This document shows positions 3,724 through 63,575 of a DNA stretch of 64,000 bases, piece by piece (within the stretch, counting starts at the first letter, position 1; each line of letters begins with the position of its first letter). The stretch lies in IMG/VR virus record IMGVR_UViG_3300047494_000112, positions 123,325 to 187,324 of that record; one strand, 5' to 3'. The notes under the pieces are model-generated. The model was not told where the DNA came from. It saw only the letters and a list, made by a program, of their open reading frames with translations, and ran no database searches. A program made the translations under genes and the position numbers. Source of the stretch: a virus.

Positions 3724-4296
3724 ATGGCTTCTATCAAGAAAATGAAGAGTGAAATTGCTGCAAAGTTGGATGAGCTTTCGGACGAGCTTGTAACTGCTCA
3801 CCATACTTTGATTATGGCAGCCGGAACCGATGACGATGATACTTCATCCGATGACGATGACGATGACGATGTTGTATCTGACGATGACGATGACGATGAT
3901 GACTCTTCGTCTGATGATGACGATGATAGCAACGATGACGATGACGATGATACTTCATCTGATGACGATGACGATGATACTTCATCTGATGACGATGACG
4001 ATGACGATGATGACTCTTCGTCTGATGATGACGATGATGACGATGATAGCACTGATGACGATGACGATGATAGCACCGATGACGATGACGATGATGAACC
4101 CGCGCCGAAGCGTACCAAAAAAGTAAAGCCGGGAAAAAAGGCAGCTAAACCTGCCAAAAAAGTCAAGAAACCCGCAAAGGTGAAAAAGCCTGCAGCAAAG
4201 GTAAAAGCTGCCAAAGGTAAGGCAGTAAAGAAGACAGCTAAAGCTAAGCCTGGACCTAAGGCTGGCAAAAAGAAGACCACCAAAAAGACACGTTAA
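3724..4296 (+). CDS. two-faced low-complexity protein: poly-Asp block then histone-H1-like Lys/Ala/Pro tail
   Basis: Encodes 190 aa. Residues 1-36 form a short helical head. Residues 37-122 are almost pure Asp with Ser/Thr (repeating DDDDD and SSDDDD). From about residue 125 the chain turns strongly basic with repeated KPAKK-type motifs, as in histone H1-like DNA-binding tails. The DNA of the acidic part is a run of GATGAC repeats, so its length may vary by slippage. It has its own leader and terminator, suggesting a separate and possibly abundant transcript. Role unknown; DNA packing or charge-driven condensation is inference. Confidence 0.75.
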   Translation: MASIKKMKSEIAAKLDELSDELVTAHHTLIMAAGTDDDDTSSDDDDDDDVVSDDDDDDDDSSSDDDDDSNDDDDDDTSSDDDDDDTSSDDDDDDDDDSSSDDDDDDDDSTDDDDDDSTDDDDDDEPAPKRTKKVKPGKKAAKPAKKVKKPAKVKKPAAKVKAAKGKAVKKTAKAKPGPKAGKKKTTKKTR

Positions 4297-41274: not shown

Positions 41275-41282
41275 TTAACCTT

Positions 41283-41307
41283 GGAGGGGAGCTTAGAGCT
41301 CCTCTCC
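41283..41307 (+). terminator. GC-rich hairpin after nadV
   Basis: GGAGGGGAGCT pairs with AGCTCCTCTCC with one mismatch and only a 3-nt loop. Weak T content after it; may be partial. Confidence 0.55.
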
Positions 41308-41327
41308 ATCTCTTGATGGAGAGTTTT

Positions 41328-41558
41328 ATGAGGCAGCTTTCAGCCCTTGAAAAAGAACAAAAGCTAATTGATATTGGCTTTTCAATTGCAATGATAATAA
41401 CTGACAAAAGGTATAGCAAAAAATTTAGTAACATGACCCAAGAAAAAATTGCTGAATGGGTTGCTGAACAATATAAAGGCTGTGGATTTCCAACAGTACC
41501 TTGTGGCATGTCATGGGGTGTTTTGACAAGGGAGTATTGTGATGACCGAGTTTCATAA
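41328..41558 (+). CDS. hypothetical small protein
   Basis: Encodes 76 aa; ATG 41328 follows GGAGAG, whereas the ATG at 41271 would cross the hairpin and is rejected. Ends in a Cys/Gly-rich GCGFPTVPCGMSWG. Overlaps the next gene. Confidence 0.55.
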   Translation: MRQLSALEKEQKLIDIGFSIAMIITDKRYSKKFSNMTQEKIAEWVAEQYKGCGFPTVPCGMSWGVLTREYCDDRVS

Positions 41559-41817
41559 GATACCAGATACTGAGCATTATGCAATATTGACTACTCGCAG
41601 AGTCTATATTCCTGGTGATGAAAGGTCACAAACTAATCCTGGACACGGTTATCCTGCTTCCACAGAGACATTTATCAATTATGAATCATTCTCTGATCGA
41701 AAAGCTTGGGAAGCAAAGATTGATTTTCTTGCTAAGAGGCAAGATACATTTAAGGCACTACACGTTGTTCCTGCTGAAATTACGGTGACTACTCAGGTAA
41801 AGGTAAAGACACCATGA
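41542..41817 (+). CDS. hypothetical protein
   Basis: Encodes 91 aa from ATG 41542 behind AAGGGAG. Beta-like, Tyr-rich. Overlap of 17 nt with the previous gene. Function unknown. Confidence 0.55.
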   Translation: MTEFHKIPDTEHYAILTTRRVYIPGDERSQTNPGHGYPASTETFINYESFSDRKAWEAKIDFLAKRQDTFKALHVVPAEITVTTQVKVKTP

Positions 41818-41886
41818 TAGGAAATGTAATCGACCCAGGCTCAATTCTTGAGACGAGGAATAAGCAGCGTTTGGAAAGGAATGCAA

Positions 41887-43059
41887 ATGAGCAAAGTGCT
41901 TGACCTGAATACTACTGTCAAAAAGATTGGTTGCATTTACGAAGAGTTTCTGCTAGAGAATTGGGGTAAAGTTAAGCTGAGCGAAATGCAAGATTTGATA
42001 ATAAAAGAATTACGTGAAGCGAATGTAAGGCTAAGAGAGGATTTTGGATATAAGACCAGGTATTACCAGCCTAAAAAGATGAGAGGCCGACCTGCTCCTT
42101 CTAATGCTACAATTGAACGTGCTGCCCAAATGGCTGACATGAAGCTAAATGAACGCATGACCTTGGAAGAAATTGGTGCTCATTATGGCATGACACGCGA
42201 ACGTGTGCGTCAAATTCTAAACAAATTTTCCAAAGAGCAGTATCAGGCTTACCGAGCAGATGTTTCTGAAGCTGCTCAGCGTAAACGAGAGGCGTTAAAG
42301 GATGAAATTGAACAGCGTAAAATTGAGCGGCAAAAATATTGGGATCAATGTCACGACATTGCAAAGCAAGATTTTGCAAATGGCTTGACTTGGGATCAGG
42401 TTTTGGAAAAGAATGGTTGGACCAGAACCATCCAGCATCAACTACTCGACAAATATGTGGATCTAATTCGATTTCCCAGAGTAAGAATTGCAGCAAAAAT
42501 GACAGACGAAATTTGGAATGAAAGATACGAGATAGCCAAAAGAGTCCTGTCTGATGGAGGATCTTCGGAGGAAATTGCGTCAAAGCTGCACATATCAATT
42601 AGCTGCATTACTGCTATATATAAAAAGTTTCCTGATCTTAAACAGTTGGTTAAAGACCAAAGAGATAAAAAGAAGCAAAAAAGAAAGTGTCCTACTTTTA
42701 AGATCTATGATAAGGTTTGGGAACAGAGATACACTATTGCAAAAGAAATGCTAGACCAAGGAAAAAGTTGGGATGAGGTGAAAAAAGCTTTAAATTTGAA
42801 AGGCTATTCTAGTATCATTCTTCTTCAAAATCACTATCCTGATTTAAAGAAAAAGCCAGGCCATCGTAAAATAGGAAAAGGAAATCATGCCTTATCACCT
42901 GACGTTTGGCAGTTTAGGTATGATACAGCAAGGCAGATTTTATTCTACGACAAGGGTACGTGGAATGACGTTGCTCGTAAATTAGATTTGAAAATATCTT
43001 CAATGAATCGACTCAAAGTCAAGTTTCCTGATTTGAAAAACGCAAGGACAAATAGGTAG
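41887..43059 (+). CDS. sigma-region-4-like protein with four tandem HTH modules
   Basis: Encodes 390 aa; ATG 41887 follows AAAGGA. Residues 91-111 (MTLEEIGAHYGMTRERVRQI) are a textbook sigma70 region 4 helix-turn-helix. After a charged linker come four repeats of about 46 residues (152-197, 210-256, 278-324, 341-384). Each has the plan W..RY.IA...L..G.SW.EV...L.....SI......FPDLK, i.e. small HTH units that could read a long DNA site. No region 2 is visible, so it is not a complete sigma factor; a transcription or replication-origin binder is the likely role. Confidence 0.75.
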   Translation: MSKVLDLNTTVKKIGCIYEEFLLENWGKVKLSEMQDLIIKELREANVRLREDFGYKTRYYQPKKMRGRPAPSNATIERAAQMADMKLNERMTLEEIGAHYGMTRERVRQILNKFSKEQYQAYRADVSEAAQRKREALKDEIEQRKIERQKYWDQCHDIAKQDFANGLTWDQVLEKNGWTRTIQHQLLDKYVDLIRFPRVRIAAKMTDEIWNERYEIAKRVLSDGGSSEEIASKLHISISCITAIYKKFPDLKQLVKDQRDKKKQKRKCPTFKIYDKVWEQRYTIAKEMLDQGKSWDEVKKALNLKGYSSIILLQNHYPDLKKKPGHRKIGKGNHALSPDVWQFRYDTARQILFYDKGTWNDVARKLDLKISSMNRLKVKFPDLKNARTNR

Positions 43060-43566
43060 ATGCAAAACACCTGGCAGTGGCGGAGCTTGGTTGCTCTAAA
43101 AACTCTATCAGAGAGCAAACTTGTAAAATTGTTCAAGCTGCCAGAGTTTAGAGTGATTATGCAAGATAAACCGTACTACAAGTCTCTAAGACTAGAAAAC
43201 TATGTCAAAGTAGAATACAGCAAAAAACGAGGAAATTTGCTGTTACTACATGCTGATCTAAGCCATCAAACAGCCAGTCCAAATTACATGGAATGGCTGT
43301 GGTACTCTCAAGCTAGAGGAGGCTCAGCTGCAAACTATGGCCCTTCATTTAAAATTTCACCACAAGTTGTAGCTCAACAGCATGCTTTTTGGGTACCTTT
43401 AGAGCAATGGTGTGAATTTCCTGACAAGTGGAAAAGCTTTAAATCTGACTTTACAATTGCAATTCGTTTGGATGAAGATGAGGTTCCAATAAAGGTAAAA
43501 CGCCTCTGGTTCAAGAAATACTTTGCTGAGTTTAACCGATTACGAAAAGAGGGGTTAGAGTTATGA
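43060..43566 (+). CDS. hypothetical protein
   Basis: Encodes 168 aa starting directly after the previous stop (TAG ATG). Basic, Trp-rich. Coupled by ATGA to the amber-interrupted gene. Not recognised. Confidence 0.65.
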   Translation: MQNTWQWRSLVALKTLSESKLVKLFKLPEFRVIMQDKPYYKSLRLENYVKVEYSKKRGNLLLLHADLSHQTASPNYMEWLWYSQARGGSAANYGPSFKISPQVVAQQHAFWVPLEQWCEFPDKWKSFKSDFTIAIRLDEDEVPIKVKRLWFKKYFAEFNRLRKEGLEL

Positions 43567-43892
43567 CAACCTGGCGCTATCAGCTAGTCTATGAAATTCA
43601 TTTGATAGGCGAAGAAGAAGAACGTGTGTATTCCTTCTGTGAAGTGTAGCCAGATAAAGATGAAAAATTATCTGGCTACACTGATCCTCAAAGGCCGGTA
43701 TCGGCTGAAGATGTAATGGGGATATTGTGGACGTTGGCCAAGATGAGAGACTCTGTGATAAAGTACGGTGCAGTTGAATACAAAAAATTAGAATCGGGAA
43801 TGAAATTCCAAATCCAGGAGAAGAAAAATGGACCATTGGATAATCAACAAGCTGGAAACATTGTGGATGAAGGTCCCGGTCTCACCATATGA
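43563..43892 (+). CDS. amber-interrupted gene (28 + 80 codons in one frame)
   Basis: ATG 43563 overlaps the upstream stop (ATGA) and has GAGGGG in front. Translation gives 28 residues ending FCEV, then TAG at 43647-43649. The same frame then stays open for 80 codons with normal protein character (QRPVSAEDVMGILWTLAK and on) to TGA at 43890-43892. The amber lies at the base of a perfect 12-bp hairpin. TAG is an ordinary stop elsewhere in this window, and no CTA-anticodon tRNA is seen here. Either programmed readthrough, a recent nonsense mutation or a sequence error. The tail overlaps the next gene by 65 nt. Confidence 0.55.
43646..43679 (+). other. perfect 12-bp hairpin spanning the in-frame amber
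   Basis: GTAGCCAGATAA (43646-43657) pairs exactly with TTATCTGGCTAC (43668-43679), 10-nt loop. The TAG is bases 2-4 of the left arm. Position inside an open frame suits a recoding element better than a terminator; no T-run follows. Confidence 0.6.
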
Positions 43893-44301
43893 GGTTTCAA
43901 GATTCTTGATAGTAGGTGCCGCATTTCCAATGAGCTTTGGTTCAGGATTTCAGATTTACCAAGGTGACAAAATAGCTTTAATACTATTGTTTATCTGGGC
44001 TTTGATTATCCGAAGCGATTATTTGGCAACAATTCAAGCTGAGAGAGAAAATTTAAGACAACACTACAATTCTCAAAAGATCAGCCAATTCATTTGGAGA
44101 ATTTGGCTAATTGTTTTGACTTTTCAAACAGTGTTTGTAATTGCATTAGATATTAAATGGAATCACTTTGATTTCTATGATCTATATTCTTTGGGATATC
44201 CAATGCTGGCAATTGCTGCCTACCTACGTGCCATTAATTGGATAAAGCCTCCGCCTAAGACGGTGCAAGTAAAGATTCCAGAAGGAGCAGTATTTACCTA
44301 A
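43828..44301 (+). CDS. membrane protein
   Basis: Encodes 157 aa, CAGGAGAAGAAAA upstream. Four hydrophobic segments (about 26-38, 47-61, 88-105, 120-138) predict a polytopic inner-membrane protein. Starts inside the C-terminal end of the amber-interrupted frame. Function unknown. Confidence 0.65.
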   Translation: MDHWIINKLETLWMKVPVSPYEVSRFLIVGAAFPMSFGSGFQIYQGDKIALILLFIWALIIRSDYLATIQAERENLRQHYNSQKISQFIWRIWLIVLTFQTVFVIALDIKWNHFDFYDLYSLGYPMLAIAAYLRAINWIKPPPKTVQVKIPEGAVFT

Positions 44302-44332
44302 TTCTGGTAAAGTAAAACGAAGGAGAATAAAA

Positions 44333-44611
44333 TTGAATTGTCAATTTCCGTTTGGTGATCCGCGAGACAGAGAACATTTTCACTTTTGCGGAAAGCCCAC
44401 TTGTGAAAACAACAGTAATGTTCCCTATTGTGAAGAATGCTACAACCTTGCTTATGATAGCAATCGAACCAAACACTATAACAATAGGGCAAATATTAAT
44501 CCTCAACCAAAGGTTTTGGCAGTAAAGCCTGTCAAAGAAGCTCCGCAAAAAAAGATCAAAACTCCCGCCATCGCACCTAAGCGAATGGGCATAACTATAG
44601 AGGTAGATTAG
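44333..44611 (+). CDS. GcrA-like zinc-motif protein
   Basis: Encodes 92 aa from TTG 44333 behind AGGAGAATAAAA. The first 41 residues match the C-terminal signature of GcrA: NCQFPFGDP, then FHFCG, then PYCEECYNLAY, with Cys3, Cys19, Cys33 and Cys36 as likely metal ligands. GcrA is an alphaproteobacterial cell-cycle regulator that binds sigma70-RNA polymerase and methylated promoters. Here the N-terminal helix-turn-helix of GcrA is missing and a basic Lys/Pro-rich tail follows. It could imitate or interfere with host GcrA (inference). Confidence 0.7.
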   Translation: MNCQFPFGDPRDREHFHFCGKPTCENNSNVPYCEECYNLAYDSNRTKHYNNRANINPQPKVLAVKPVKEAPQKKIKTPAIAPKRMGITIEVD

Positions 44612-44612
44612 A

Positions 44613-45458
44613 ATGTTTGGACATAACCGTATAATGGTTCCAAAATCTTATTCCGAGGAACCAAAAGAATCTCTAATGATAACTAGTCTATTTAAGACCA
44701 TGCAAGGAGAAGGCCCATTTGCAGGTCGTTCATGCGTTTTTTTGCGCCTTACTGGTTGTAATCTAAAATGCAGCTTCTGCGACACTTTCTTTGACTCTGG
44801 AGACACACTCTCTTTTCAAGAGATTATTGTTCGAATCCACGAAGCAGAATTAAGATTTTATCGTAGTAGAAATATTGACATACGAAGCACTGCACTTGAA
44901 ACGCAAAAAAGACTCCTGGTAATTACAGGAGGCGAACCAACAGCTCAACCAAACCTTACCGGGTTTATTGACCAGATTATTGGTCTTGGTTGGGATGTTC
45001 AGATTGAGAGTAACGGGTTGATTAAACGTCACCTTCATCCCGATGCTTATTATGTTGTAAGCCCAAAGGTAAATGAAAAAACCAAGCAATTCATCAAGCT
45101 TAATACAGATATGCTGATGAGAGCTAATTGCTTAAAGTTTGTAATCAGCAAGACAGAACCTGGCTATACAGACATTCCAGAATTTGCACTAGAATGGCGT
45201 AAAGAAGCTGATGAACGTGGAGTAGAAAAACGTATCTATGTTTCTCCTATGAACATGTATGCTACTCAGCCAGTAAAGCTAGGAGCTAATGGAACCTTGG
45301 AAGGTAGAAGTGAGGTTGATGAACGAATCTCATTCTGGACTCCAGGATTACTTGATATGAAAAAGAACCAGGAGAACCACGAATGGGCAGCTGAAATTGC
45401 TCTTAAGCATAGAGCGTACCTGACACTACAAACTCATCTGATGGCATCACTACCATAA
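44613..45458 (+). CDS. queE: 7-carboxy-7-deazaguanine synthase (QueE-like radical SAM)
   Basis: Encodes 281 aa, one base after the GcrA-like gene. FKTMQGEGPFAGRS and GCNLKCSFCD (Cys49, Cys53, Cys56 in CX3CX2C) hold the 4Fe-4S cluster and substrate, and VITGGEPTAQPNL binds SAM. QueE makes the 7-deazaguanine core used for queuosine in tRNA or, in some phages, for modified guanine in DNA. No QueC, QueD, FolE or DpdA gene is visible in this window, so the route may be completed elsewhere or by the host. Confidence 0.88.
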   Translation: MFGHNRIMVPKSYSEEPKESLMITSLFKTMQGEGPFAGRSCVFLRLTGCNLKCSFCDTFFDSGDTLSFQEIIVRIHEAELRFYRSRNIDIRSTALETQKRLLVITGGEPTAQPNLTGFIDQIIGLGWDVQIESNGLIKRHLHPDAYYVVSPKVNEKTKQFIKLNTDMLMRANCLKFVISKTEPGYTDIPEFALEWRKEADERGVEKRIYVSPMNMYATQPVKLGANGTLEGRSEVDERISFWTPGLLDMKKNQENHEWAAEIALKHRAYLTLQTHLMASLP

Positions 45459-45471
45459 CAAGGAGAATAAA

Positions 45472-46419
45472 ATGTCTGCAACACAAACTGAGACTAAAGT
45501 GTCAAACGTCGCAATGAAGCGTTTGATTGCTAATACTATTAGCCGAGCTCTCGAAAAGATGGGCAGCAAAATCTTTACTTTTACTGACGTAAATAACGCC
45601 ATTGTTTCTGACGGAAAATATAATGGTGGAGCAACAAATGATGAAATTCAGCACGCGCTTGATTGGCGTGTAAAAGCTTACAAATTATACAAGTTGCCTG
45701 ATGGTTCGTACACAAGGTCAAAAGGCCGTGCAAGGTTGGCTAAGACCAAAAATGAAGATAAGGTAGTGAAAACTATCTTTACACCTGCTGCCAAATTGGC
45801 AAAAAATGAAGTGCTGGCCAAAAACGCAAAGCCTGGAGATGGCCGTCCTGGTGGTCGTAAGATTATCCAAAGCCCTAAAAAGGTCAAGAGAAACAAGAAA
45901 CTTGTTCAAAGTAGCATAGGCCCAACGAAGCTTGGATTTGCAATAGGTAAAGCTATTAAAGCTTCAAACAACTTTTTGTCAGCCGACATTTTGCGAGCCG
46001 TTCAAATTGACTGGCCAAAAGCCACAATTCAGGACGTTAACAAAGCTCTAAATTGGCGTATTGCAAACAAGAGCTTAAAATTCGTTGATGGGTTTCTGGT
46101 TCATAGCGTCTGGAATGGCTCCAAGAGCCATGTACGCTCTGCCAAAAACGTTATCGTGCAAAAGAGCAATTTACCTGTAGAAACAAAGACTATAACAGAC
46201 GAAACTTTAACAGCACAGATAAAACGCTTAAACGATATTCCCCACACTATTGCTGACACCTCAATCAAGATAACCAAGACTTTTGATTTTACCGCTGATG
46301 CTCTTGGTATTGCTCAATTTGAAAGCTATTGCAAAATTTATGAAATGCTGAATGACAAGCACCAAGACATTTTGTATGGTAAAGTAATGGACTACATTAA
46401 TAGCATAATGGGAAGCTAA
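45472..46419 (+). CDS. protein with duplicated winged-helix-like domain
   Basis: Encodes 315 aa, AAGGAGAATAAA upstream. Residues about 20-85 and 160-220 share one plan: (I)S/GKAI.K....F...DI..AI......AT..(D/E)(I/V)..AL(D/N)WR......LK..DG......S. A Lys/Gly/Arg linker separates them. Looks like two copies of a small DNA-binding domain, with an acidic helical C-terminus. Family not named. Confidence 0.65.
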   Translation: MSATQTETKVSNVAMKRLIANTISRALEKMGSKIFTFTDVNNAIVSDGKYNGGATNDEIQHALDWRVKAYKLYKLPDGSYTRSKGRARLAKTKNEDKVVKTIFTPAAKLAKNEVLAKNAKPGDGRPGGRKIIQSPKKVKRNKKLVQSSIGPTKLGFAIGKAIKASNNFLSADILRAVQIDWPKATIQDVNKALNWRIANKSLKFVDGFLVHSVWNGSKSHVRSAKNVIVQKSNLPVETKTITDETLTAQIKRLNDIPHTIADTSIKITKTFDFTADALGIAQFESYCKIYEMLNDKHQDILYGKVMDYINSIMGS

Positions 46420-46421
46420 AC

Positions 46422-47435
46422 TTGAGTTGGCTTGTACTAGGTGATCTACACCTTCAATGTTACCCGAAGGGAGTTCCTGCGTCGTTCTCCTATATCAAAA
46501 ATATCTTTAATCAGGTAGAAGAGTATGCACGTAAAAACGCTGTAGACACCGTAGTACAAGTTGGAGATGTTCATGATGGTGCGGGGGTCGATGAGGCCAC
46601 CCGCATCTTTCTTTTGGATCAGTTGCATAATTCTAAACTACAGTGGCGATTGCTAATGGGCAATCATGATTACACAGACTCAGAATACAACACGCTTAAA
46701 TACTATCAAGCACTACAAAAACGCTTAGGCATTTTGCCGAATGTTCAATTTTACACTGAACCTACTCCGGACAAATTGAAGGGAAAATTTGTTGCCTTTC
46801 TACCTTGGCCTCACAACAAGATAAAATTTTCGGAGCCTTTGATCTGTTTTGCTCACTTTGCAGCGGCTGGAGCCAAAGGAGATAATGGCTATGTCTTAAA
46901 AGGTGATCGTTATATCTCAAAAAATCACTATTGGGAGATAGGTGATTTACATACACCGCAGCGTGGTAGTAATTGGAATTACATAGGAGCACCACTCCAA
47001 TTCAAATACGGTGACACTGACAAAAGGTTTTTTGGCCATTTTACTGGTACAGCTATCAAACCAAAGACAACCAAGATACCAATCCAATTGCCTTATAGGA
47101 TTGAACAAGGTACCTACACTAATCCAAAAGATTTAGATATGCTTTTCAAACACTTAGGTAAACGTGAGACCAATGAATATACTCTCCTAAAATTAGGAGA
47201 AGAAATATTAGTTGATCATCGTTATGACGAGCTTAGTAAACAGCCTAGATTAACAATTGAATATGCTGGCAAGAAGCAAAAAGATGAAGAACAACAGGAT
47301 ACAATTGTGTTAATTGACTCCAAGTCCGTCAGAGAATCTTTGGTTCGTAAGCGTTTAAAGAAAAAAGGCCATGACAAAAAAACTATAGATAAAGCCATGT
47401 CGATCGTCAATTCTTTGGAGAAAGAAAATGGATGA
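46422..47435 (+). CDS. SbcD/Mre11-like nuclease (T4 gp47-type)
   Basis: Encodes 337 aa from TTG 46422. Metallophosphoesterase motifs are in order: GDLHLQ (Asp8, His10), GDVHDG (Asp49), GNHDYTD (Asn81, His82). T4 gp47 is 339 aa. Partners an SbcC/gp46 ATPase to resect DNA ends in recombination-dependent replication; no gp46-like gene is in this window. Lys-rich helical C-terminus fits the partner-binding part. Confidence 0.85.
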   Translation: MSWLVLGDLHLQCYPKGVPASFSYIKNIFNQVEEYARKNAVDTVVQVGDVHDGAGVDEATRIFLLDQLHNSKLQWRLLMGNHDYTDSEYNTLKYYQALQKRLGILPNVQFYTEPTPDKLKGKFVAFLPWPHNKIKFSEPLICFAHFAAAGAKGDNGYVLKGDRYISKNHYWEIGDLHTPQRGSNWNYIGAPLQFKYGDTDKRFFGHFTGTAIKPKTTKIPIQLPYRIEQGTYTNPKDLDMLFKHLGKRETNEYTLLKLGEEILVDHRYDELSKQPRLTIEYAGKKQKDEEQQDTIVLIDSKSVRESLVRKRLKKKGHDKKTIDKAMSIVNSLEKENG

Positions 47436-47655
47436 AATTAAGCTGTGCAAGGACTGCCAATGGGTAAAAGTTGGCTGGATTGATAAATTGCTTGTTGGAT
47501 GGAGATTTGCTAAATGTACACACCCAGATTCGGAACAAGAAGAAGAAATAGACTACTCAACAGGAAAGATAGAGCCCAAACATTTTTACTATTGCTCTAC
47601 CATGAGAATGGGCAGTTGTGGAAAAGAAGCTAACCTCTTTGAGCCCAAATCATGA
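47428..47655 (+). CDS. Cys-rich small protein
   Basis: Encodes 75 aa overlapping the nuclease gene by 8 nt. CKDCQW at the start and KCTH, YYCST, GSCG later give five to six Cys, probably a zinc site. No family named. Confidence 0.6.
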   Translation: MDEIKLCKDCQWVKVGWIDKLLVGWRFAKCTHPDSEQEEEIDYSTGKIEPKHFYYCSTMRMGSCGKEANLFEPKS

Positions 47656-47978
47656 CAAAACGCTTACCTGAAGCTGTAAAGCTAATTCGTCGGGCTAAAA
47701 GATATTTACGAAAGGGCTGGACTAAAGGATATTCAGCTAGAGACAAAGACAACCATTGGGCTCCTCCTACAGAAAAAAGTGCTGTTTGCTGGTGCCTAGT
47801 TGGAGCTTTAGACAAAGCAGTCAAAGGTGGAGATTGGTATCAGCATTTAGGTAAGGAAGAGCTGTACAAAGTCTTTGGTCGGCAGCCTTTACATAAATTT
47901 AATGACGCTGCTGAATCTGTTGATGAGGTAATTGGCAAGTTAGACCATTTGGAGGCTCTATATGTATCAAGTAAATAA
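47652..47978 (+). CDS. DUF6197-like protein
   Basis: Encodes 108 aa, ATGA-coupled. RKGWTKGYSARD, then SAVCWCLVGALDKAV, then KFNDAAESVDEVIGKLD is the pattern of DUF6197, a family common in phages with no known function. Overlaps the next gene by 17 nt. Confidence 0.65.
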   Translation: MTKRLPEAVKLIRRAKRYLRKGWTKGYSARDKDNHWAPPTEKSAVCWCLVGALDKAVKGGDWYQHLGKEELYKVFGRQPLHKFNDAAESVDEVIGKLDHLEALYVSSK

Positions 47979-53150: not shown

Positions 53151-53732
53151 TCATTTTCGTTCAAGTTCTAACTCCTTTAAAATCAAAGGTGGTAGTAAGT
53201 CCCAGAGAGTATCTGCAAAATATACTCCTAGTTTTTGTCTAATTTCTGTTTTTGTCATAGTTTTAACAAAAAGCCAAATGTCCATTCTTCTAATACCTAG
53301 TCCAGGCAAAGAAAAGGGGCTTCTAGATTTTTGTTTATTAACCAATTTGGCTCGATGTGAGCATTTATCTTGGTTCAGACACGCTGAATAGTTTGCCTCC
53401 AATGGAGAGCCACAATTAGAACAAGAATACTGCCATTTGGATTTTTCTCTTAGTTCTTGCAATAACTGATACAGTTTTGTCATTTTTTCTAATTGGGAAA
53501 CAGAATTAGAGTAAGCAGCTTGAGCAGTTTTTTGGTCAACACCAAAAACAATTGCAAAATCTTGAATACTAGCTGTATATTTTTTGTAAAAACATCCAGT
53601 CTTTTTTCCTCCTGTTAGTCTAACAAGATTAGCTGGGCATTCATAAACTTGGCAATCTCCAATTACACGAATACTAGATATAGGACAAACGTGTATCTGT
53701 GTCTTATCCTTTCCTTTTAGTTTTACTTCCAC
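53151..53732 (-). CDS. Cys-rich zinc-finger protein next to the RuvC-like gene
   Basis: Encodes 193 aa, overlapping the upstream RuvC-like gene by 29 nt. N-terminal VCPISS..VYECPANLVRL, then a central helix region, then CSNCGSPL..CLNQDKC with spacing of a four-Cys zinc finger. Probably a DNA-binding partner produced with the nuclease (inference). Confidence 0.65.
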   Translation of the reverse strand: MEVKLKGKDKTQIHVCPISSIRVIGDCQVYECPANLVRLTGGKKTGCFYKKYTASIQDFAIVFGVDQKTAQAAYSNSVSQLEKMTKLYQLLQELREKSKWQYSCSNCGSPLEANYSACLNQDKCSHRAKLVNKQKSRSPFSLPGLGIRRMDIWLFVKTMTKTEIRQKLGVYFADTLWDLLPPLILKELELERK

Positions 53733-54375
53733 GTTTATTTTCCTTTATCCATTTTTTTGCAAAAGCTTGAATTTGATTAGGCTTCCAAGATTCATATGGA
53801 TTTTTGTCCCACAAATTTGCTAAATAAACTGCTTGAAGATGAGCATCAATCATATGATCTGGAAAAGGCTTTAAGCTATCATAGAAACCTTCCAAAGGCC
53901 TTAAAATTTTCTCTGCTGGTACTAGTTTACCTTTCACACGTTTATTTACCATTATTGTCTTAGCGTATTGAGGATTTTGTTTAGTCCATCGGTTTTTCCA
54001 CTGTGATGCTGATATTAAATATATGTATATCTTATTCTGCAAACAGATAGAAGATATAATACCAATCATAATATTTAAATATTCGGAAGAATTTCCATTA
54101 AACCTCCCTCGATTCTGAAATCGCTCTAACAAGACAACATTTGGTTTATGCTTGTTTAGCAGTGTTTTAAATTCTAACTCGAAGGAAATTAGACAAGGCA
54201 AGAAAGCTGGATCAATTAATGTCTGAATAGTATTTGTTATAAATCCTAATTCAATTAATTTTTTACTTACGGTTAACCCGTACGCTAAATTCTTGCTACC
54301 CATGTCCAAACTTAAAATACGCTTGAATTTCTTTTTTGTTTTGATTAGCTTTGGCAGCTTAGGTTTCTTTGCCAT
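53704..54375 (-). CDS. RuvC-like (RNase H-fold) nuclease, candidate Holliday-junction resolvase
   Basis: Encodes 223 aa. ILSLDMGSKNLAYGL (Asp24) is the first RNase H-fold strand, NVVLLERFQNRG (Glu84) the second acidic site, and FPDHMIDAHLQAVY (Asp173, Asp177) the last pair. This D-E-D-D order and spacing is that of RuvC-type resolvases, including mitochondrial and viral forms. It may debranch phage DNA before packaging, the job of T4 gp49. First gene of the minus-strand cluster. Confidence 0.75.
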   Translation of the reverse strand: MAKKPKLPKLIKTKKKFKRILSLDMGSKNLAYGLTVSKKLIELGFITNTIQTLIDPAFLPCLISFELEFKTLLNKHKPNVVLLERFQNRGRFNGNSSEYLNIMIGIISSICLQNKIYIYLISASQWKNRWTKQNPQYAKTIMVNKRVKGKLVPAEKILRPLEGFYDSLKPFPDHMIDAHLQAVYLANLWDKNPYESWKPNQIQAFAKKWIKENKRGSKTKRKG

Positions 54376-54489: not shown

Positions 54490-55125
54490 ATGAATACTAA
54501 ACAACGTCAAGCTTTAGCTGAAATTGGTCATCCTAAGCATTTAGATAAGCTAGTTTCAGATAAAGATTCAGATGTAAGATATGCAGTAGCTATAAGTGGA
54601 AACGACTCTCATAGAGACAAGCTAATTTCAGATAAAGATTTAGATGTAAGACAAGCAGTAGCTGAGAATGGAAATGATTCCCATAAAGACAAGCTAATTT
54701 CAGATCACGATGAAGATGTAAGACAAGCAGTAGCTGAGAATGGAAACGATTCTCACAGAGATGAGCTAATATCAGATCCAAATAAATATGTAAGATATGC
54801 AGTAGCTAGGTACGGAAACGATTCTCATAGAGACAAGCTAGTTTCAGATAAAGATGAGAATGTAAGATGTGCAGTAGCTTGGAAGGGAAATGATTCCCAT
54901 AGGGACAAATTAATGTCAGATCCAAGTGAGTTTGTAAGACGGGCGATAGCTAAGCATGGAAATGACTCCCATAGAGACAAGCTAGTTTCAGATCCAGAGG
55001 AATATGTAAGATATGCAGTAGCTCAGCATGGAAATGTTAGTCATGCAAGATCTTTACTAAAAGATAAAGATAAAGAAGTTAGATTTGCTGCAAAACAAAG
55101 ACTAAAAGAGTTAGGAGAAAAATAA
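54490..55125 (+). CDS. HEAT-like 24-residue repeat protein 1
   Basis: Encodes 211 aa; ATG 54490 follows TAGGATAAAGACC (a start at 54457 is rejected). Begins with the shared head QALAEIGHPKHLDKL and continues as about eight 24-residue units of the form GNDSHRDKLVSDxxxxVRxAV. Unit length and the VR..VA helix pattern fit HEAT-type alpha solenoids, which bind proteins. The last unit (HARSLLKDKDKEVR) differs, as in all copies. Function unknown. Confidence 0.75.
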   Translation: MNTKQRQALAEIGHPKHLDKLVSDKDSDVRYAVAISGNDSHRDKLISDKDLDVRQAVAENGNDSHKDKLISDHDEDVRQAVAENGNDSHRDELISDPNKYVRYAVARYGNDSHRDKLVSDKDENVRCAVAWKGNDSHRDKLMSDPSEFVRRAIAKHGNDSHRDKLVSDPEEYVRYAVAQHGNVSHARSLLKDKDKEVRFAAKQRLKELGEK

Positions 55126-55127
55126 AA

Positions 55128-55766
55128 ATGACACCTAACCAACGCCAAGCTCTAGCTTCAATTAGCCATCCTAAGCATTTAGACAAGCTAGTTTCAGATA
55201 AAGATTCAGATGTAAGACAAGCAGTAGCTGAGCATGGAAACGATTCCCATAAGGATAAGCTAATTAAAGATAAAGATTCAGATGTAAGACATGCAGTAGC
55301 TCAGCATGGAAATGACTCTCACAGAGATAAGCTAGTATCAGATCCAAGTGAGTATGTAAGACATGCAGTAGCTCAGCATGGAAATGACTCTCACAGAGAC
55401 AAGCTAGTTTCAGATCCAAATTCAGGTGTAAGATATGCAGTAGCTGAGAATGGAAATGACTCTCATAGAGACAAGCTAGTTTCAGATCCAAGTGAGTATG
55501 TAAGATATGTAGTAGCTAAGCATGGAAACGATTCTCACAGAGATAAGCTAGTAAAAGATAAAGATCTAGATGTAAGATATGCAGTAGCTGAGCATGGAAA
55601 TGATTCTCATAGAGACAAGCTAATTTCAGATCCAGATTGGCATGTAAGACGTGCAGTAGCTGAGAATGGAAATGTTAATCATGCAAAAGCTTTACTAGAC
55701 GATAAAGATAAAAAAGTTAGACTTGCTGCAAGACATAGACTAAAAGCATTAGGAGTTAAATCTTGA
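55128..55766 (+). CDS. HEAT-like 24-residue repeat protein 2
   Basis: Encodes 212 aa, 2 nt after copy 1, TAGGAGAAAAATAAA upstream. Head QALASISHPKHLDKL and about eight repeat units, nearly identical in DNA to copy 1 over long stretches; units end in HAKALLDDKDKKVR. Coupled to a virion protein gene whose TTG start overlaps the stop. Confidence 0.75.
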   Translation: MTPNQRQALASISHPKHLDKLVSDKDSDVRQAVAEHGNDSHKDKLIKDKDSDVRHAVAQHGNDSHRDKLVSDPSEYVRHAVAQHGNDSHRDKLVSDPNSGVRYAVAENGNDSHRDKLVSDPSEYVRYVVAKHGNDSHRDKLVKDKDLDVRYAVAEHGNDSHRDKLISDPDWHVRRAVAENGNVNHAKALLDDKDKKVRLAARHRLKALGVKS

Positions 55767-57370
55767 GTTTTACATTTAACGGTAACAGCGCAGATTACTC
55801 GAATACGGCAGGTTACGAAGCAATAGCTCCAGAAAACACAGGGATTGGCTGGATTGCACAAACACGATTAAATGGCTTAGTAGCTCGTGCTAATCAAAAA
55901 TTAATTAATGCTATGAAAGTTGATGGCGTGCCTTTGACTGTATGGGTAAAGACTCAGACAGGTTATCCATGTACGTGCTGTGCATCAGATAAAGTCACGT
56001 CGGGCCTTTTATCCTCTTCAGTTGAAAATGCTCAATCTACAAATCATTTTTATACTGATCTCGACGCCTCAGCTTTGCCTGATCCAACCGAACAAAAATT
56101 TAAAGCTGTTAGATTAAAAAGTGTAGATTTAGTCAACGATATCTCAGATCCAATTTGGGCCAGCTTAGCTAATCCAACAAGTAACAAGATAATTACTCCT
56201 GAAATAAATGAAACCAACCAATTAAATCAAGGAGTACAGGTTAATCTAAATCAAAACGAAGATTTAGATATTTTTGTACCTAATGCAAATCAAGTTGAAG
56301 GTCAATCTGAATACGGTGATTTTGAATTAGATGATTTCTTTGCAGGTGGAGATTCTGGAGCCGTATTTGGCGGTGATAAAACTGCTTGTGGAATTTGTTT
56401 TACCTCAGGTTTTACTCAAGGCTATTCACTATTAAATGGTCAGCGCATTGTTTTAGATGCTTCAGGTTCAGTGCCTTTTTCTTTACAAGGGGCTGATTTA
56501 ATTTCCAGCACCTATCCTAACTCTTTTAATCTACCAGTGAATAACACCGGCGTGTTTTGGCAATTAGAGCTACCTGTATTCTGCAAAGAATGGATAAACG
56601 TTAGAGCTAGGAATAATTTAAAACCAGCTCAATGGGTAATAATTGAATATAGCCTTGATGCTGTAAATTGGAATTTATTAACGTTAGATATTTTGAACGG
56701 AACTAGTAATTCTTATACACGCTTATGGTACATTCGCGCTAGAAGAGACCCTGCAGCAACACAGGTTTCACAGGTAACTTTTACACACTTGGAATTGATG
56801 GTCATTACCTCTGATCCAATTCCTTCACAAACACCAAATTTTTCCTACAACACAGATTTTAATCAGTATGATGCCATTGTAAATACAACTTTTGACGTTG
56901 CACCCACTGTAAATATGATTCCCCGAGAATCCGTTTTTAGCGATAACAAATATGGACTATTTTGGAAAGTAATAGATATTACGCCTCAAATGACCTCAGG
57001 CCAACAAATCTTTGGATTTACAGTTAATGCTAGGCTAGTACAAAGACACGAACAGCTCTATAACCTACACTCTCTATACGTTGAGGTTCCAACTTATATG
57101 TCTGTATTGGGGGCATCTGGTACAAATCTTAGTGGCTATAATTCTACTCTACCTAACCAGTTAAACGAAATCGCTGCAACTACAGCACCGTTTACTGGAT
57201 TAGAACAGGTTCAAGGTGGGTACTCTATCGTTAATTCAGAGGAACAACAAGGTGGACAACAAGTAGATAATATAGGATTAGATGACACCCAACCAATTGA
57301 ATATGATATTCAGGATACAGCTACAGTAGAATCTGGTTATCATCCTCCTGACAATCAAGGTACGTCATGA
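55763..57370 (+). CDS. probable virion structural protein
   Basis: Encodes 535 aa from TTG 55763 with TAGGAG upstream. Beta-rich, Asn/Thr/Gln-rich sequence. YPCTCCASDK near residue 73 and KTACGICFTSG near residue 210 give two Cys groups that may bind metal. Composition and position among tail-type genes suggest a baseplate or fibre-attachment protein. Family not recognised. Confidence 0.65.
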   Translation: MSFTFNGNSADYSNTAGYEAIAPENTGIGWIAQTRLNGLVARANQKLINAMKVDGVPLTVWVKTQTGYPCTCCASDKVTSGLLSSSVENAQSTNHFYTDLDASALPDPTEQKFKAVRLKSVDLVNDISDPIWASLANPTSNKIITPEINETNQLNQGVQVNLNQNEDLDIFVPNANQVEGQSEYGDFELDDFFAGGDSGAVFGGDKTACGICFTSGFTQGYSLLNGQRIVLDASGSVPFSLQGADLISSTYPNSFNLPVNNTGVFWQLELPVFCKEWINVRARNNLKPAQWVIIEYSLDAVNWNLLTLDILNGTSNSYTRLWYIRARRDPAATQVSQVTFTHLELMVITSDPIPSQTPNFSYNTDFNQYDAIVNTTFDVAPTVNMIPRESVFSDNKYGLFWKVIDITPQMTSGQQIFGFTVNARLVQRHEQLYNLHSLYVEVPTYMSVLGASGTNLSGYNSTLPNQLNEIAATTAPFTGLEQVQGGYSIVNSEEQQGGQQVDNIGLDDTQPIEYDIQDTATVESGYHPPDNQGTS

Positions 57371-57858
57371 CACCTAACCAACGCAAAGCTTTAGCTTCAA
57401 TTAGCCATCCTAAGCATTTAGATAAGCTAATTAAAGATTCACATGTAGGTGTAAGATATGCAGTAGCTGAGAATGGAAACGATTACCATAGAGACAAGCT
57501 AGTTTCAGATCCAAATTGGTATGTAAGACAAGCAGTAGCTGAGAATGGAAACGATTACCATAGAGACAAGCTAGTTTCAGATCCAAATTGGTATGTAAGA
57601 CAAGCAGTAGCTTGGAATGGAAATGACTCTCACAGAGACAAGCTAGTTAAAGATACAGATTGGATTGTAAGACAAGCAGTAGCTGAGCATGGAAATGATT
57701 CTTATAGAGACAAGCTTGTCTCAGATCCAGATTGGCATGTAAGACAAGCAGTAGCTAGGAATGGAAATGCTAACCATGCTAAAGCTTTGCTAAAAGATAA
57801 AGATAAAAATGTTAGAGATATTGCAAAAAATAGACTAAAAGATTTAGGAGCACAGTAA
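57367..57858 (+). CDS. HEAT-like 24-residue repeat protein 3
   Basis: Encodes 163 aa, ATGA-coupled to the structural protein. Same head (QRKALASISHPKHLDKL) and about six units; two adjacent units are near-identical 72-nt DNA repeats (GNDYHRDKLVSDPNWYVRQA), a sign of recent unit duplication. Ends HAKALLKDKDKNVR. Confidence 0.75.
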   Translation: MTPNQRKALASISHPKHLDKLIKDSHVGVRYAVAENGNDYHRDKLVSDPNWYVRQAVAENGNDYHRDKLVSDPNWYVRQAVAWNGNDSHRDKLVKDTDWIVRQAVAEHGNDSYRDKLVSDPDWHVRQAVARNGNANHAKALLKDKDKNVRDIAKNRLKDLGAQ

Positions 57859-58058
57859 TGATTAGAATAAATTTACCTCCAGCTGCAAAAATAAACAGAC
57901 AACAACGTTATGCAGCAATTAAAAATGTTGACCCAAAACCTTCGTTTATGCAAAAGCCTCTTCCGCCTACTTCTAGTACGGAAATTCGCACTCGATTACC
58001 TACAATGGAAACTGCATCAACCTGCAGACGCAACCCTAGAATTTCAACGGTGCGATAA
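57858..58058 (+). CDS. small Pro/Arg-rich protein
   Basis: Encodes 66 aa from ATG 57858, overlapping the previous stop (TAATG). Pro/Arg/Thr-rich with no motif; may be a real small virion protein or a remnant next to the repeat fragment. Confidence 0.4.
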   Translation: MIRINLPPAAKINRQQRYAAIKNVDPKPSFMQKPLPPTSSTEIRTRLPTMETASTCRRNPRISTVR

Positions 58059-58061
58059 TGG

Positions 58062-58181
58062 ATGTGTGGTAATAAAGACCACGCTAAAGCTCTATTAAAA
58101 GACACTGACCCGGATGTTCGTAAACGTGCTAAATATAAACTTGATCAGTTAAATTCAAAAAAATCTAATTCAAATTCATAA
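58062..58181 (+). pseudogene. remnant of a HEAT-like repeat gene (last unit)
   Basis: ATG 58062 gives 39 aa (NKDHAKALLKDTDPDVRKRA and on) matching only the terminal unit of the repeat proteins, without head or middle. No clear ribosome site. Probably the tail of a fifth copy lost by deletion. Confidence 0.5.
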
Positions 58182-58233
58182 TTACTTTTTGAGAGTCTAA
58201 AAAGACCTCATTCACTACACTTAGGAGAAAGTC

Positions 58234-58764
58234 ATGTTTGGTCTACGCCGTAGAAAAACCAATATGACCAGAGACAAGAAAACGGGTAGGATGCGAAGAA
58301 AAGACCCAAAACGTTCTAGAGCTGCCAAAAAAGCAGCTCGAAAGCGTATTGGTAAGCATTTATCAGCAGCTACTCGTCGAAAAATTGCACGTTCAGAACA
58401 ACGTGCAAGAAAAACCGGAAGAACCAAAGCAGGCCGTAGAGTAATCAAGGCTGCCGTAGTGCCGGTAATTGGACCCAACGCTAAACGTAAAAGGATATCA
58501 CTTGTGACTAAAGCTAAAAAAGCGGCTGCGAAAACAGCCTTGAAGCCGGCGAAACTAATTGCAGTTACAGCTAGTACAAAAAAGAAAGTAAAAGCTGTCA
58601 AGGCTGTAAAGCCTGCCAAAGGCACAAAAGCTGCTCCGAAGAAAGAAACCAAAGCTAAAGCTGTAAAGGTTGTTAAGGCCAAGAAGGCGGGACTGCAAAG
58701 GTCAAAGCCACAAAAGTTAAGGCTGCAACAAAGACTTCGCCTAAGACTGCACGTACAAAGGTAA
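58234..58764 (+). CDS. histone-H1-like Lys/Ala-rich protein, frame break near 58690
   Basis: Encodes 176 aa in the primary frame, TTAGGAGAAAGTC upstream. Arg-rich head (RRKDPKRSRAAKKAARKR), then Lys/Ala/Pro/Val repeats typical of histone H1-like tails. After KAKKAG at about 58690 the frame gives an odd LQRSKPQKLRLQ end. The other frame continues the same Lys/Ala/Thr repeats (ACT at 58692 onward) to TAA at 58869-58871. The intact gene therefore probably spans 58234-58871, with a 1-nt indel in a G run or a -1 shift. Likely DNA-condensing. Confidence 0.7.
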   Translation: MFGLRRRKTNMTRDKKTGRMRRKDPKRSRAAKKAARKRIGKHLSAATRRKIARSEQRARKTGRTKAGRRVIKAAVVPVIGPNAKRKRISLVTKAKKAAAKTALKPAKLIAVTASTKKKVKAVKAVKPAKGTKAAPKKETKAKAVKVVKAKKAGLQRSKPQKLRLQQRLRLRLHVQR

Positions 58765-58885
58765 CAGCTTCCGCCAAAAAGACGACCCCTAAAGGAAAGA
58801 CCAAAAATTTGGTCAAGGCCAAAGGTACACGTATCAAGAAAGCAACGCCTTCCGTTATTACAGTTAAATAAACTAATAGAGTATT

Positions 58886-58914
58886 GGTGAGAGTGTAAAA
58901 ACTCTCACCTTTTC
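58886..58914 (+). terminator. Rho-independent terminator
   Basis: GGTGAGAGT pairs with ACTCTCACC over a 6-nt loop, followed by TTTTCT. It lies after the second-frame stop at 58871, supporting the longer gene. Confidence 0.8.
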
Positions 58915-58928
58915 TAGGAGGCAAGTCA

Positions 58929-60086
58929 TTGCCGTCGACTGCAAATATTCGTAAGTATCAAAACCTTCGTGCTGTATCTTTACATTTAGTTGAGATTAAT
59001 AAACAGCACCAAGCTCTCGCGAAAACCATTGATAAGATTGTCAAAGCCAACGATAAAGTTATTACCGTTGGTCCTTCTGCACGACAAAAAATTACTGTAA
59101 AACAAGCACTACCTCAGCCGATAGTTGATAAAATTGCAAACAATAGCAAGGTAATTGACAAGCTTAGCCAGCAATATGCTGCGCTATCAAACATGATTCT
59201 TAATCTAAATACTCAATTCAAGACTTCAAATGTTGATCCCAAATTGGTTGATCTATTAACGTCTAAAATTGCTGAATTACAAAATCAAATTCGGTCACAA
59301 AGAGATATAGCCAATAAAGCAGCTACCCACTATGGTCAGTCTTACGCATCTAATGTTGGGATTAGCTATGCCAAAAAAATCATGAATTTTTTAAACAAAA
59401 AATTCAGCACCAAAGGTACAATGATTACTACCTCAGGTATGATTGACGGTCAGCCTTGTATTACTCATTTTGTAAAATACGAAAACATTAAGAATGATAA
59501 AGATGAAATTGAACCGATGGTTACGGTAGCAATTTCGGAGTATCAAGGTCATCATTGGATTAATCCTAATTCAGTTCAGCCTCGCTCTGTAGGAAAATTT
59601 AGATTAGGTTTTCAATTAGATGATGATGAAAAGAAAGCTCTCATTCAGATTCAACGCTACGTTCAAGAACAAATGGCTGCTGATTCTTTATCATCAACTC
59701 ATTCTTTGAAGCTAATACCGATTACCAAAAAGCAGGCAGGACTACAAAAATATAATAATGCTGTCTTTACTGACAAGTCGATAGTTGTTACTTTTCCTAA
59801 AAAAGAGATTAAGACAGAAGCTCAAGCCAAAGAAAGAGCGGAAGCAATTTATCGCAACATCCATCATGCTTATGTTGCTTCACATCCAGGAAAGAGATCT
59901 TTTGATCGGATTGTTTATCCTATTAAACAAGTGGGTGATAACTGGGTTGTAACGTACATGTTTGTCACTGGTGATAAATTTACAGGACGAACAATGACCA
60001 ATGATGAACATCAAAAATTAAATAACATTTTTGATCCTCATGAAGTAGCTGTTTTGAAAAAAGCTCTTAACAGCATGTTTGATTAA
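58929..60086 (+). CDS. probable virion protein with coiled-coil N-terminus
   Basis: Encodes 385 aa from TTG 58929 behind TAGGAGGCAAGTCA. A helical coiled-coil region (about 15-150) is followed by a mixed domain with QPCITHFVKYENI and a basic, His-containing C-terminus. Overall look is a tail or head assembly protein; family not named. Confidence 0.6.
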   Translation: MPSTANIRKYQNLRAVSLHLVEINKQHQALAKTIDKIVKANDKVITVGPSARQKITVKQALPQPIVDKIANNSKVIDKLSQQYAALSNMILNLNTQFKTSNVDPKLVDLLTSKIAELQNQIRSQRDIANKAATHYGQSYASNVGISYAKKIMNFLNKKFSTKGTMITTSGMIDGQPCITHFVKYENIKNDKDEIEPMVTVAISEYQGHHWINPNSVQPRSVGKFRLGFQLDDDEKKALIQIQRYVQEQMAADSLSSTHSLKLIPITKKQAGLQKYNNAVFTDKSIVVTFPKKEIKTEAQAKERAEAIYRNIHHAYVASHPGKRSFDRIVYPIKQVGDNWVVTYMFVTGDKFTGRTMTNDEHQKLNNIFDPHEVAVLKKALNSMFD

Positions 60087-60090
60087 CAGA

Positions 60091-60432
60091 ATGAACACAC
60101 TTGAACAACGCATAGCTTTAGCTAAAATTGGTCATCCTAAACATTTAGACAAGCTAGTCTCAGATCCAAGTAAGCATGTAAGACATGCAGTAGCTGAGAA
60201 TGGAAATGATTCTCATAGAGACAAGCTAGTTTCAGATCCAGATTGGAGTGTAAGATATGCAGTAGCTATAGAGGGGAATGACTCTCATAGAGACAAGCTA
60301 GTTTCAGATAAAGATTGGCATGTAAGACATGCAGTAGCTGAGAATGGAAATGATTCTCATAGAGACAAGCTAGTAAAAGATCCAAATGGATATGTAAGAT
60401 ATGCAGTAGCTAGGTATGGAAACGACTCATAG
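60091..60432 (+). CDS. HEAT-like repeat protein 4, first part (frameshifted)
   Basis: ATG 60091 opens the shared head (QRIALAKIGHPKHLDKL) and four to five units, then the frame ends prematurely at GNDS-stop. Other copies read AACGACTCTCATAG here; this copy has AACGACTCATAG, i.e. 2 nt of a CTCT run are missing. The remaining repeat units continue in another frame. Confidence 0.7.
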   Translation: MNTLEQRIALAKIGHPKHLDKLVSDPSKHVRHAVAENGNDSHRDKLVSDPDWSVRYAVAIEGNDSHRDKLVSDKDWHVRHAVAENGNDSHRDKLVKDPNGYVRYAVARYGNDS

Positions 60433-60583
60433 AGACAAGCTAATTTCGGATCCAAGTGAGTTTGTAAGACGTGCAGTAGCTTGGAAAGGAAATGCTAACC
60501 ATGCTAAAGCTTTGCTAAATGATAAAGATAAAAATGTTAGAGATGCTGCAAAAGGTAGACTAAAAAAGTTAGGAGTACGGTAA
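60428..60583 (+). pseudogene. HEAT-like repeat protein 4, out-of-frame remainder
   Basis: In the shifted frame the sequence reads HRDKLISDPSEFVRRAVAWK then HAKALLNDKDKNVR, i.e. the expected last units, to TAA at 60581-60583. Together with 60091-60432 this is one gene of about 164 codons. Confidence 0.7.
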
Positions 60584-62747: not shown

Positions 62748-63575
62748 ATGTATTTCTACTATGGACTAACGCAGGAAATTCCCAGTACAATTGTTTCCTC
62801 AGCCAGTGCTTTTACCGCTGGTTCGTCCTTAGTAATAGGTAAAGGCGTAACACAGACAAAAATTGTAGGTACAGCTTCTGGCATTGCAAATGTATCTGGT
62901 TCAAGTAGCTCAACTACCTACGTTACAGCTCCCGGTTCCGCAATTGGTATAGCAACAGCATCAGGAGCTGCTTTAGCTAATGTGTCTAGTGCATTTAGTG
63001 CTGTAGGCATAACAAATGTTATAGGTTCAGTCTACCAAATAAATAACAGTTTATTTTTGGCTAGTGGTTCTTCTGTAGCTATAGGTGGTAGTAACTCTAC
63101 AACTTATATATCAGCATCCGGATCCGCTTTAGGTATGGGTTCTGCATCAAGTGTCGGAGTAGCTGAAAGCTTTGGCTTATTCTCAGCTGATAGTTTTTCA
63201 AATGTTTTTGCTACAGCAATCGAACAGCAAAATAGCACTGGCGTTGCATCAGGTTTTGGAGATTCTGCATTTGTAGGTGTATCTACAAATTCAGCGTCAG
63301 CTGCAACAAATGGAACATCGGCGGTATCTGGTACTTCTCTATCTACTTTCTTTGCTTCTGGTTCAGCTGATGGCTTTGGAGATGGCTTAGGTTCTGGAGT
63401 AAGTTTAGATCAAGCTATAGCATCAAGTGATAGCGCAACTAACGTTAGTGGAATTGGTTATTCTACCACTTTTATTTCAGCCACAGGAACCTCAGACAGT
63501 ATCGGAGAGGGTTTAGGTAGTGGTGTTGGATTAACAAATTCTACCTTATCTTGTGATAGCTTTTCTAGCGCGTAA
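62748..63575 (+). CDS. Gly/Ala/Ser-repeat fibre-like protein, frame break at its end
   Basis: Encodes 275 aa to TAA 63573-63575, weak AAAAGGTAGACCTAA ribosome site. After a short head the chain is Ser/Ala/Gly repeats of about 33-36 residues, with recurring GSA.G.G, GDGLGSGV and FIS.. units, as in extended fibre or adhesin stalks. The same repeats resume in the -1 frame from 63569, so the true protein probably continues beyond the window. Confidence 0.65.
   Translation: MYFYYGLTQEIPSTIVSSASAFTAGSSLVIGKGVTQTKIVGTASGIANVSGSSSSTTYVTAPGSAIGIATASGAALANVSSAFSAVGITNVIGSVYQINNSLFLASGSSVAIGGSNSTTYISASGSALGMGSASSVGVAESFGLFSADSFSNVFATAIEQQNSTGVASGFGDSAFVGVSTNSASAATNGTSAVSGTSLSTFFASGSADGFGDGLGSGVSLDQAIASSDSATNVSGIGYSTTFISATGTSDSIGEGLGSGVGLTNSTLSCDSFSSA

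Follow-up and report, generated by a model that had tools for sequence, protein, structure and literature searches.

Our analysis suggests, with somewhat better than even confidence, that the 24-residue repeat genes described here constitute an expanding, recombining repertoire of small protein binders of the LRV (leucine-rich repeat variant) type that would be expressed together with virion genes. The genes were noticed in a stretch of 64,000 nt (the window), which represents bases 123,325-187,324 of a linear virus record of 187,324 bases (G000). The terminase encoded by G000 has a 33-38% match to those of jumbo-type myoviruses (e.g. Phage NCTB, Erwinia/Xanthomonas phages and Vibrio GR7B phages).

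The repeat family in the window and in the whole record

A family profile search of the record identified about 20 genes or pieces that share one architecture, i.e. an N-cap followed by four to eight 24-residue units and then a C-cap. Three intact genes, one frameshifted copy and one C-cap fragment are in the window, all on the plus strand. The first gene (54490-55125; 211 aa; N-cap, seven units and C-cap) was recognized from its open reading frame, a Pfam HEAT match (1.8e-22) and a 72-nt tandem array. The second (55128-55766; 212 aa), which was assigned based on its reading frame, Pfam LRV/HEAT matches, an AF2 model and Foldseek, is its tandem neighbor, and its stop codon overlaps the start of the following gene. 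This 535-aa gene (55763-57370, plus strand; phrog_21298) has relatives in Erwinia/Xanthomonas, Vibrio and Rhizobium phages, and its stop codon in turn overlaps (ATGA) the start of the third repeat gene (57367-57858; 163 aa; five units and C-cap; reading frame and junction). The fragment, a diverged C-cap, is within a 40-aa frame (MCGNKDHAKALLKDTDPDVRKRAKYKL...; 58061-58180) and was detected by sequence and by a profile match with an E-value of 7e-6. Finally, the copy at 60091-60583 (sequence and profile) has a 2-nt shift near 60418 that leads to a stop at 60432, with the remainder at 60416-60583 in another frame.

An earlier note on this DNA had described four genes and a fragment with a common head, near-identical 72-nt units and a variant last unit, separated by structural genes in a virion block. 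The common N-cap (...HPKHLDKL), the 72-nt units and the variant last unit (GNANHAKALL...) are indeed present in the reading frames at 54490, 55128 and 57367, and Tandem Repeats Finder reports a period of 72 or a multiple thereof with scores of 405-889, far above chance. The described identity holds for framework codons but not for whole units: across the G000 copies, mean nucleotide identity is 87% for N-caps, 83% for C-caps and 79% for units (range 56-100%). Adjacent near-identical units are found in the gene at 57367, which contains an exact run of 81 nt at lag 72. The fragment noted at 58062 is genuine, while only three of the four genes are intact. Moreover, the genes at 54490 and 55128 are 2 nt apart rather than separated by structural genes, and only one nearby gene in the window (61109) is annotated as a virion gene, so that the virion block rests mainly on the copies elsewhere in the record. 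The family is thus real, but its size had been understated, because the profile detects some 15 further members between 8 and 51 kb of the record, all of which are encoded by the minus strand. Their record positions are 8174, 10365, 11916, 32864, 36009, 40591, 44451, 44755 (fused to another domain), 47718, 48146, 49038, 49760, 50182, 50598 (diverged) and 50939. The same search found no family members between 52 and 177 kb. The reading frame is intact in 15 of the 16 main copies.

The surroundings of the window genes hold several other features. A RuvC-like Holliday-junction resolvase gene (53704-54375, minus strand) is just upstream of the repeat genes and points away from them. Amid the repeat genes, a very basic Lys/Arg/Ala-rich protein, perhaps DNA-condensing, is encoded at 58234-58764; it is the opposite of an acidic protein encoded at 3724-4296, which consists of long aspartate runs and a lysine-rich tail and has a 27-33-nt tandem repeat in its DNA. 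A low-complexity, repetitive Gly/Ala/Ser-rich protein of fibre-like composition follows a head gene (62748-63575).

The copies are unlikely to be a collapsed-repeat artefact of assembly, because the longest exact tract common to two G000 genes is 116 nt, 68 of the 69 G000 units are distinct, and each copy has different unique neighbors. Short-read assembly can scramble high-identity repeats of this kind (PMC12222747), and the order of units may be locally wrong in the metagenomic records of G000 and of the second phage described below.

The units fit an LRV-type solenoid

The units had been called HEAT-like in the earlier note. All three intact window genes score 70-78 bits against Pfam HEAT (PF02985; cut-off 23.5). 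Against LRV (PF01816; cut-off 21.6), the genes at 57367 (25.4 bits) and 60091 (23.9 bits) are above the cut-off and the gene at 54490 (19.7 bits) below it; the 55128 protein scores 34.9 bits for LRV and 70.2 bits for HEAT. HEAT units are two helices of together about 37-47 residues, and the phage units, at 24 residues, do not have this length. By contrast, an LRV unit has 24 residues (a period of 72 nt), and the AF2 model of the 55128 protein is a regular two-helix solenoid with an LRV superhelix (mean pLDDT 96.7); in this model, helix A spans unit positions 3-9 and helix B positions 15-24 (7 and 10 residues). With this predicted model, Foldseek ranks 1lrv first (TM 0.78 over 191 columns), followed by the alphaRep complexes 6bzx, 4xl5 and 4zv6. 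Similarly, 1LRV is the sole solved relative in a single-sequence search (2e-10), and the family profile finds 1lrv at 8e-13 and alphaRep at 7e-5. On the strength of unit length, best solved match and predicted fold, the family is of LRV-type alpha-solenoids, and we prefer this label, which keeps the solenoid of the original description.

Variation is confined to a few positions, including those that bind in alphaRep

Among the 69 units of G000, the framework (G-N-D-S-H-R-D-K-L...D...V-R..V-A) is almost fixed, and each unit varies at only six or seven positions (13-16, 19, 23 and 24), which have an entropy of about 2-2.9 bits, while other positions are mostly below 0.5 bits. In alphaRep, the randomized positions 18, 19, 22, 23 and 26 form the concave-face binding interface in complexes (PMC3754942). 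These align to unit positions 15, 16, 19, 20 and 23, the last being less certain because the alphaRep helix is longer there. By this alignment, the variable positions would lie on the concave face of the phage protein. At the G000 positions 15, 16, 19 and 23, Trp makes up 12% and Tyr 15% of residues, compared with 1.4% and 3.2% in the window proteins (9-fold and 5-fold).

The earlier note had asked for signs of positive selection at surface positions. To avoid selecting positions by their own variability, we took those defined by alphaRep. By simple counting on a minimum spanning tree of distinct, recombining units, pN/pS at these positions is 1.68 [1.29-2.38] in G000 and 3.92 [2.45-7.88] in the second phage (G001), compared with 0.15 and 0.16, respectively, in the framework. 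Such signs are thus present in both phages, although an excess of pN over pS within a genome need not mean an ongoing arms race and can also arise when each unit touches a different part of one fixed ligand. The three variable stretches of a unit are nearly independent of each other in G000 (z 0.6-1.9) and linked in G001 (z 5.7-8.1); because of this linkage, we do not claim a fully combinatorial library.

Related families in other phages

G001 is T4-like, with a gp6 closest to those of a pelagiphage and a Methylophilales phage, and has about 19 genes of the family; variable positions in its 116 units are 14-16, 19, 20, 23 and 24. The copies are 57-61% identical between G000 and G001 and 67-77% within a phage. 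The greater likeness within than between phages points to independent expansions or to likeness that is kept by exchange. A third phage, vB_VmeM-32 (KU160494), has five family genes (PHROG 20647; annotated "HEAT repeat protein"), with variable positions 13-16, 19 and 20 plus position 4.

The family was matched by only one of 50,697 phage records, and G001 was the only real match in a scan of IMG/VR with the degenerate pattern GNDxHRDKL. Pattern scans of IMG/VR also found no relatives of the 535-aa neighbor or of the terminase. In 84,980 bacterial and archaeal genomes, scans by profile and by protein, which required exact short matches and could miss distant LRV proteins, found no close relative, and plasmids contained just two LRV-like proteins, both distant. 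Among viral models, Foldseek matched the proteins of vB_VmeM-32 and, in uncultured phages, single LRV proteins. Thus, LRV proteins in phages are not new per se; a repeat family of the present kind in phages was not found described in the open-access literature.

Copies are inserted at gene boundaries among virion genes

All G000 copies are within two virion-gene blocks. In one order, a 393-aa gene is followed by a repeat gene, the hub gene (gp5-like), gp25, a repeat gene, gp6, a repeat gene and the gene for a TIM-barrel tail protein; the terminase gene is also within the stretches that hold repeat genes. In G001, the order is gp25, a repeat gene, gp6, two repeat genes and the next wedge gene, and the boundary between the baseplate genes gp25 and gp6 is therefore occupied by a copy in both phages. 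In the distant relative RHph_N46, hub, gp25 and gp6 genes are contiguous with gaps of 3-9 nt; in HTVC008M, gp25 and gp6 overlap and the site is empty; and the annotation of PhiXhv-15 has no extra gene of the repeat kind at the hub/gp25/gp6 site. These empty sites argue that the repeat genes have been inserted at gene boundaries, at least one of which is common to two unrelated phages. The five vB_VmeM-32 genes, four of which encode a distinct 70-aa N-terminus, are among small unassigned genes outside the virion genes, so that virion linkage is not universal.

In the G000 record, a gene at 45765-47708, beside several copies, reads by eye like a portal protein gene, and a gene at 43115-43933 like a prohead protease gene. 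Directly after the probable portal gene, record positions 44755-45768 encode a protein of 337 aa in which LRV units are accompanied by a separate C-terminal domain, possibly an adaptor of the family joined to an effector-like part. Amid the capsid- and portal-type genes and next to repeat genes are two ADP-ribosyltransferase (PF03496) genes (record 41080-42798 and 43863-44438), whose products might, by analogy, be packaged enzymes like Alt of T4.

Turnover of arrays and duplication of copies

Neighboring repeat genes follow one another in tandem, either 2 nt apart or with overlapping stop and start codons, and two exact tracts (116 and 82 nt) are common to different genes at different unit numbers, i.e. 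out of register. In G001, the two copies after gp6 have identical sequences over 100 nt upstream and 52 nt downstream, while they contain five and eight units, respectively, with different variable residues. The identical flanks show that an operon stretch was duplicated, and together with the differing arrays they imply either that turnover of arrays outpaces mutation of the flanks or that two strains with different arrays recombined; such differences in unit number and content were seen in this one within-genome duplicate pair. In two runs of G001 repeat genes (117078-121126 and 134280-137069), the overlap of stop and next start is inside AATAATGAGTAA, which suggests that units as long as a gene can be duplicated head to tail without loss of the joint. 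Thus, the earlier view of an expanding, recombining solenoid family is well supported by the about 20 copies, the tandem duplicates, the out-of-register tracts, the LRV-type fold and the second phage's own expansion. The family also combines, as in concerted evolution, units that are kept alike with a few binding-face positions rich in non-synonymous changes, the 79% unit identity being at the low edge.

Discussion

We suggest the following model for the repeat family. The framework residues would form the helices and the core of each solenoid, while unit positions 14-16, 19 (20), 23 and 24 would form an exposed concave face that differs from unit to unit, giving each gene product its own recognition surface. 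The repertoire would grow by tandem duplication of whole genes, while 72-nt units would be gained, lost and exchanged among copies. Because the copies are at gene boundaries of virion operons, mostly with overlapping stop and start codons, their products would be made together with the virion proteins. Late in infection, they might then bind those host or rival proteins by which virion parts are sensed or blocked. Alternatively, they might bind virion parts of the phage itself and serve as shields or as helpers in assembly. The family, its copy number, the fold prediction, the confined variation, the pN/pS contrast, the out-of-register exchange and the insertion sites are results of the analysis; we infer the time of expression, the binding to proteins and the class of targets. 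Protein binding is suggested by variable residues that coincide with the binding positions known for this fold and by pN above pS, which makes the earlier idea of binding to varying proteins reasonable, although nothing points specifically to the host or rival-phage proteins named there. Such targets would fit, because many bacterial defenses sense capsid, portal, terminase and tail proteins (PMC11364771), matching the placement of the genes, and because the diversification matches an arms race. In PADLOC, the two G000 solenoid proteins tested had no match and relatives had two marginal short matches; the short matches in PADLOC and NCBIfam are marginal and mutually unrelated, and we take them as chance.

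Own-virion targets would fit the placement and the coupling of the genes, but relatives form particles in the absence of these genes and the content of the arrays is not conserved. A separate explanation holds that each solenoid binds the product of the neighboring structural gene, as a chaperone, a jig or a minor virion part, and that the diversity reflects many ligands of the phage itself. As expected from it, copies with coupled start and stop codons are interspersed with baseplate, portal-like and terminase genes, and the same gp25/gp6 boundary is occupied in two very different phages. However, relatives assemble without the repeat genes, unit number and content differ even between two copies at one G001 boundary, and vB_VmeM-32 has the family away from virion genes. 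We therefore consider this explanation unlikely, if the best of the alternatives. In the vB_VmeM-32 study in PLoS One, virion proteins were analyzed on gels without mass spectrometry.

Selfish or near-neutral expansion, in which repeated DNA recombines and spreads with little function and exposed positions drift, would account for the evident repeat-driven duplication, the frameshifted copy and the fragment. Yet the intact frames of nearly all main copies and the framework pN/pS of 0.15 indicate that the proteins are under purifying selection, and pN/pS at the exposed positions is above 1 rather than near 1; this explanation is therefore improbable. Still less probable are solenoids that, like PUF or TALE proteins, read RNA or DNA by their variable residues: a weak Pfam PUF match (E 0.001) and a mean pI of 8.7 in G000 are outweighed by a fold that matches protein-binding solenoids and by a Trp/Tyr-rich variable face that is net acidic in the two phages (-0.9 and -0.5 charges per unit). 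Directed diversification, e.g. by a diversity-generating retroelement, is the least credible explanation and the retroelement is rejected, because a reverse transcriptase search (PF00078) that works in control genomes found none in G000, G001 (both records maybe incomplete) or vB_VmeM-32, and because the pattern in its favor, in which several variable codons vary mainly at bases 1 and 2 with base 3 nearly fixed (almost all NNT at unit position 16, mostly NNG at position 23, and different codons for one residue at different unit positions), is explained by selection for residue change and shared ancestry.

The preferred repertoire of LRV-type binders has several known parallels. The LRV protein of Azotobacter (1LRV; PF01816) has the same 24-residue two-helix units and is the best solved match by sequence and by fold. 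The Azotobacter protein also has an iron-sulphur domain. By contrast, in the phage family no cysteine cluster was seen, and the family is multi-copy with a homogenized framework and a hypervariable face. In alphaRep (PMC3754942), an N-cap, a variable number of units and a C-cap are likewise combined, with five variable positions that correspond by alignment; however, alphaRep is an engineered library with repeats of about 31 residues, while the phage family is natural with 24-residue units. The vB_VmeM-32 genes have the same unit and most of the same variable positions, and differ in the N-terminus of four of them, the placement apart from virion genes, the fewer copies and the lower homogeneity. 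Ankyrin-repeat families of poxviruses and giant viruses are also virus-encoded expanded solenoids, usually binding host proteins, but with a different repeat and in hosts of a different domain. Finally, fungal NLR sensors (WD40 repeats of Podospora het-d/het-e) undergo concerted evolution with few diversifying surface positions and unit number in flux (PMC12222747). As in the phage family, units are kept alike while few binding-face positions diversify; these sensors, however, are immune receptors built from a nucleotide-binding domain and a beta-propeller, while the phage proteins are stand-alone solenoids.

As a tentative extension, to which we give a low probability, we speculate that an evolvable library of about 20 natural solenoid binders, produced along with the virion proteins, masks virion parts from, or neutralizes, the many host defenses that sense terminase, portal, capsid or tail proteins, with new specificities arising by exchange of units between copies. 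If true, such a library would be the viral equivalent of the hypervariable repeat sensors found in immune receptors. Solenoid libraries with a variable concave face are otherwise engineered (alphaRep) or a trait of immune receptors (fungal NLRs), and here two unrelated phages each have about 20 natural solenoids in virion operons. If their targets are found, these proteins would offer a direct view of what phages need to bind or block at the late stage, together with a ready set of natural binders.
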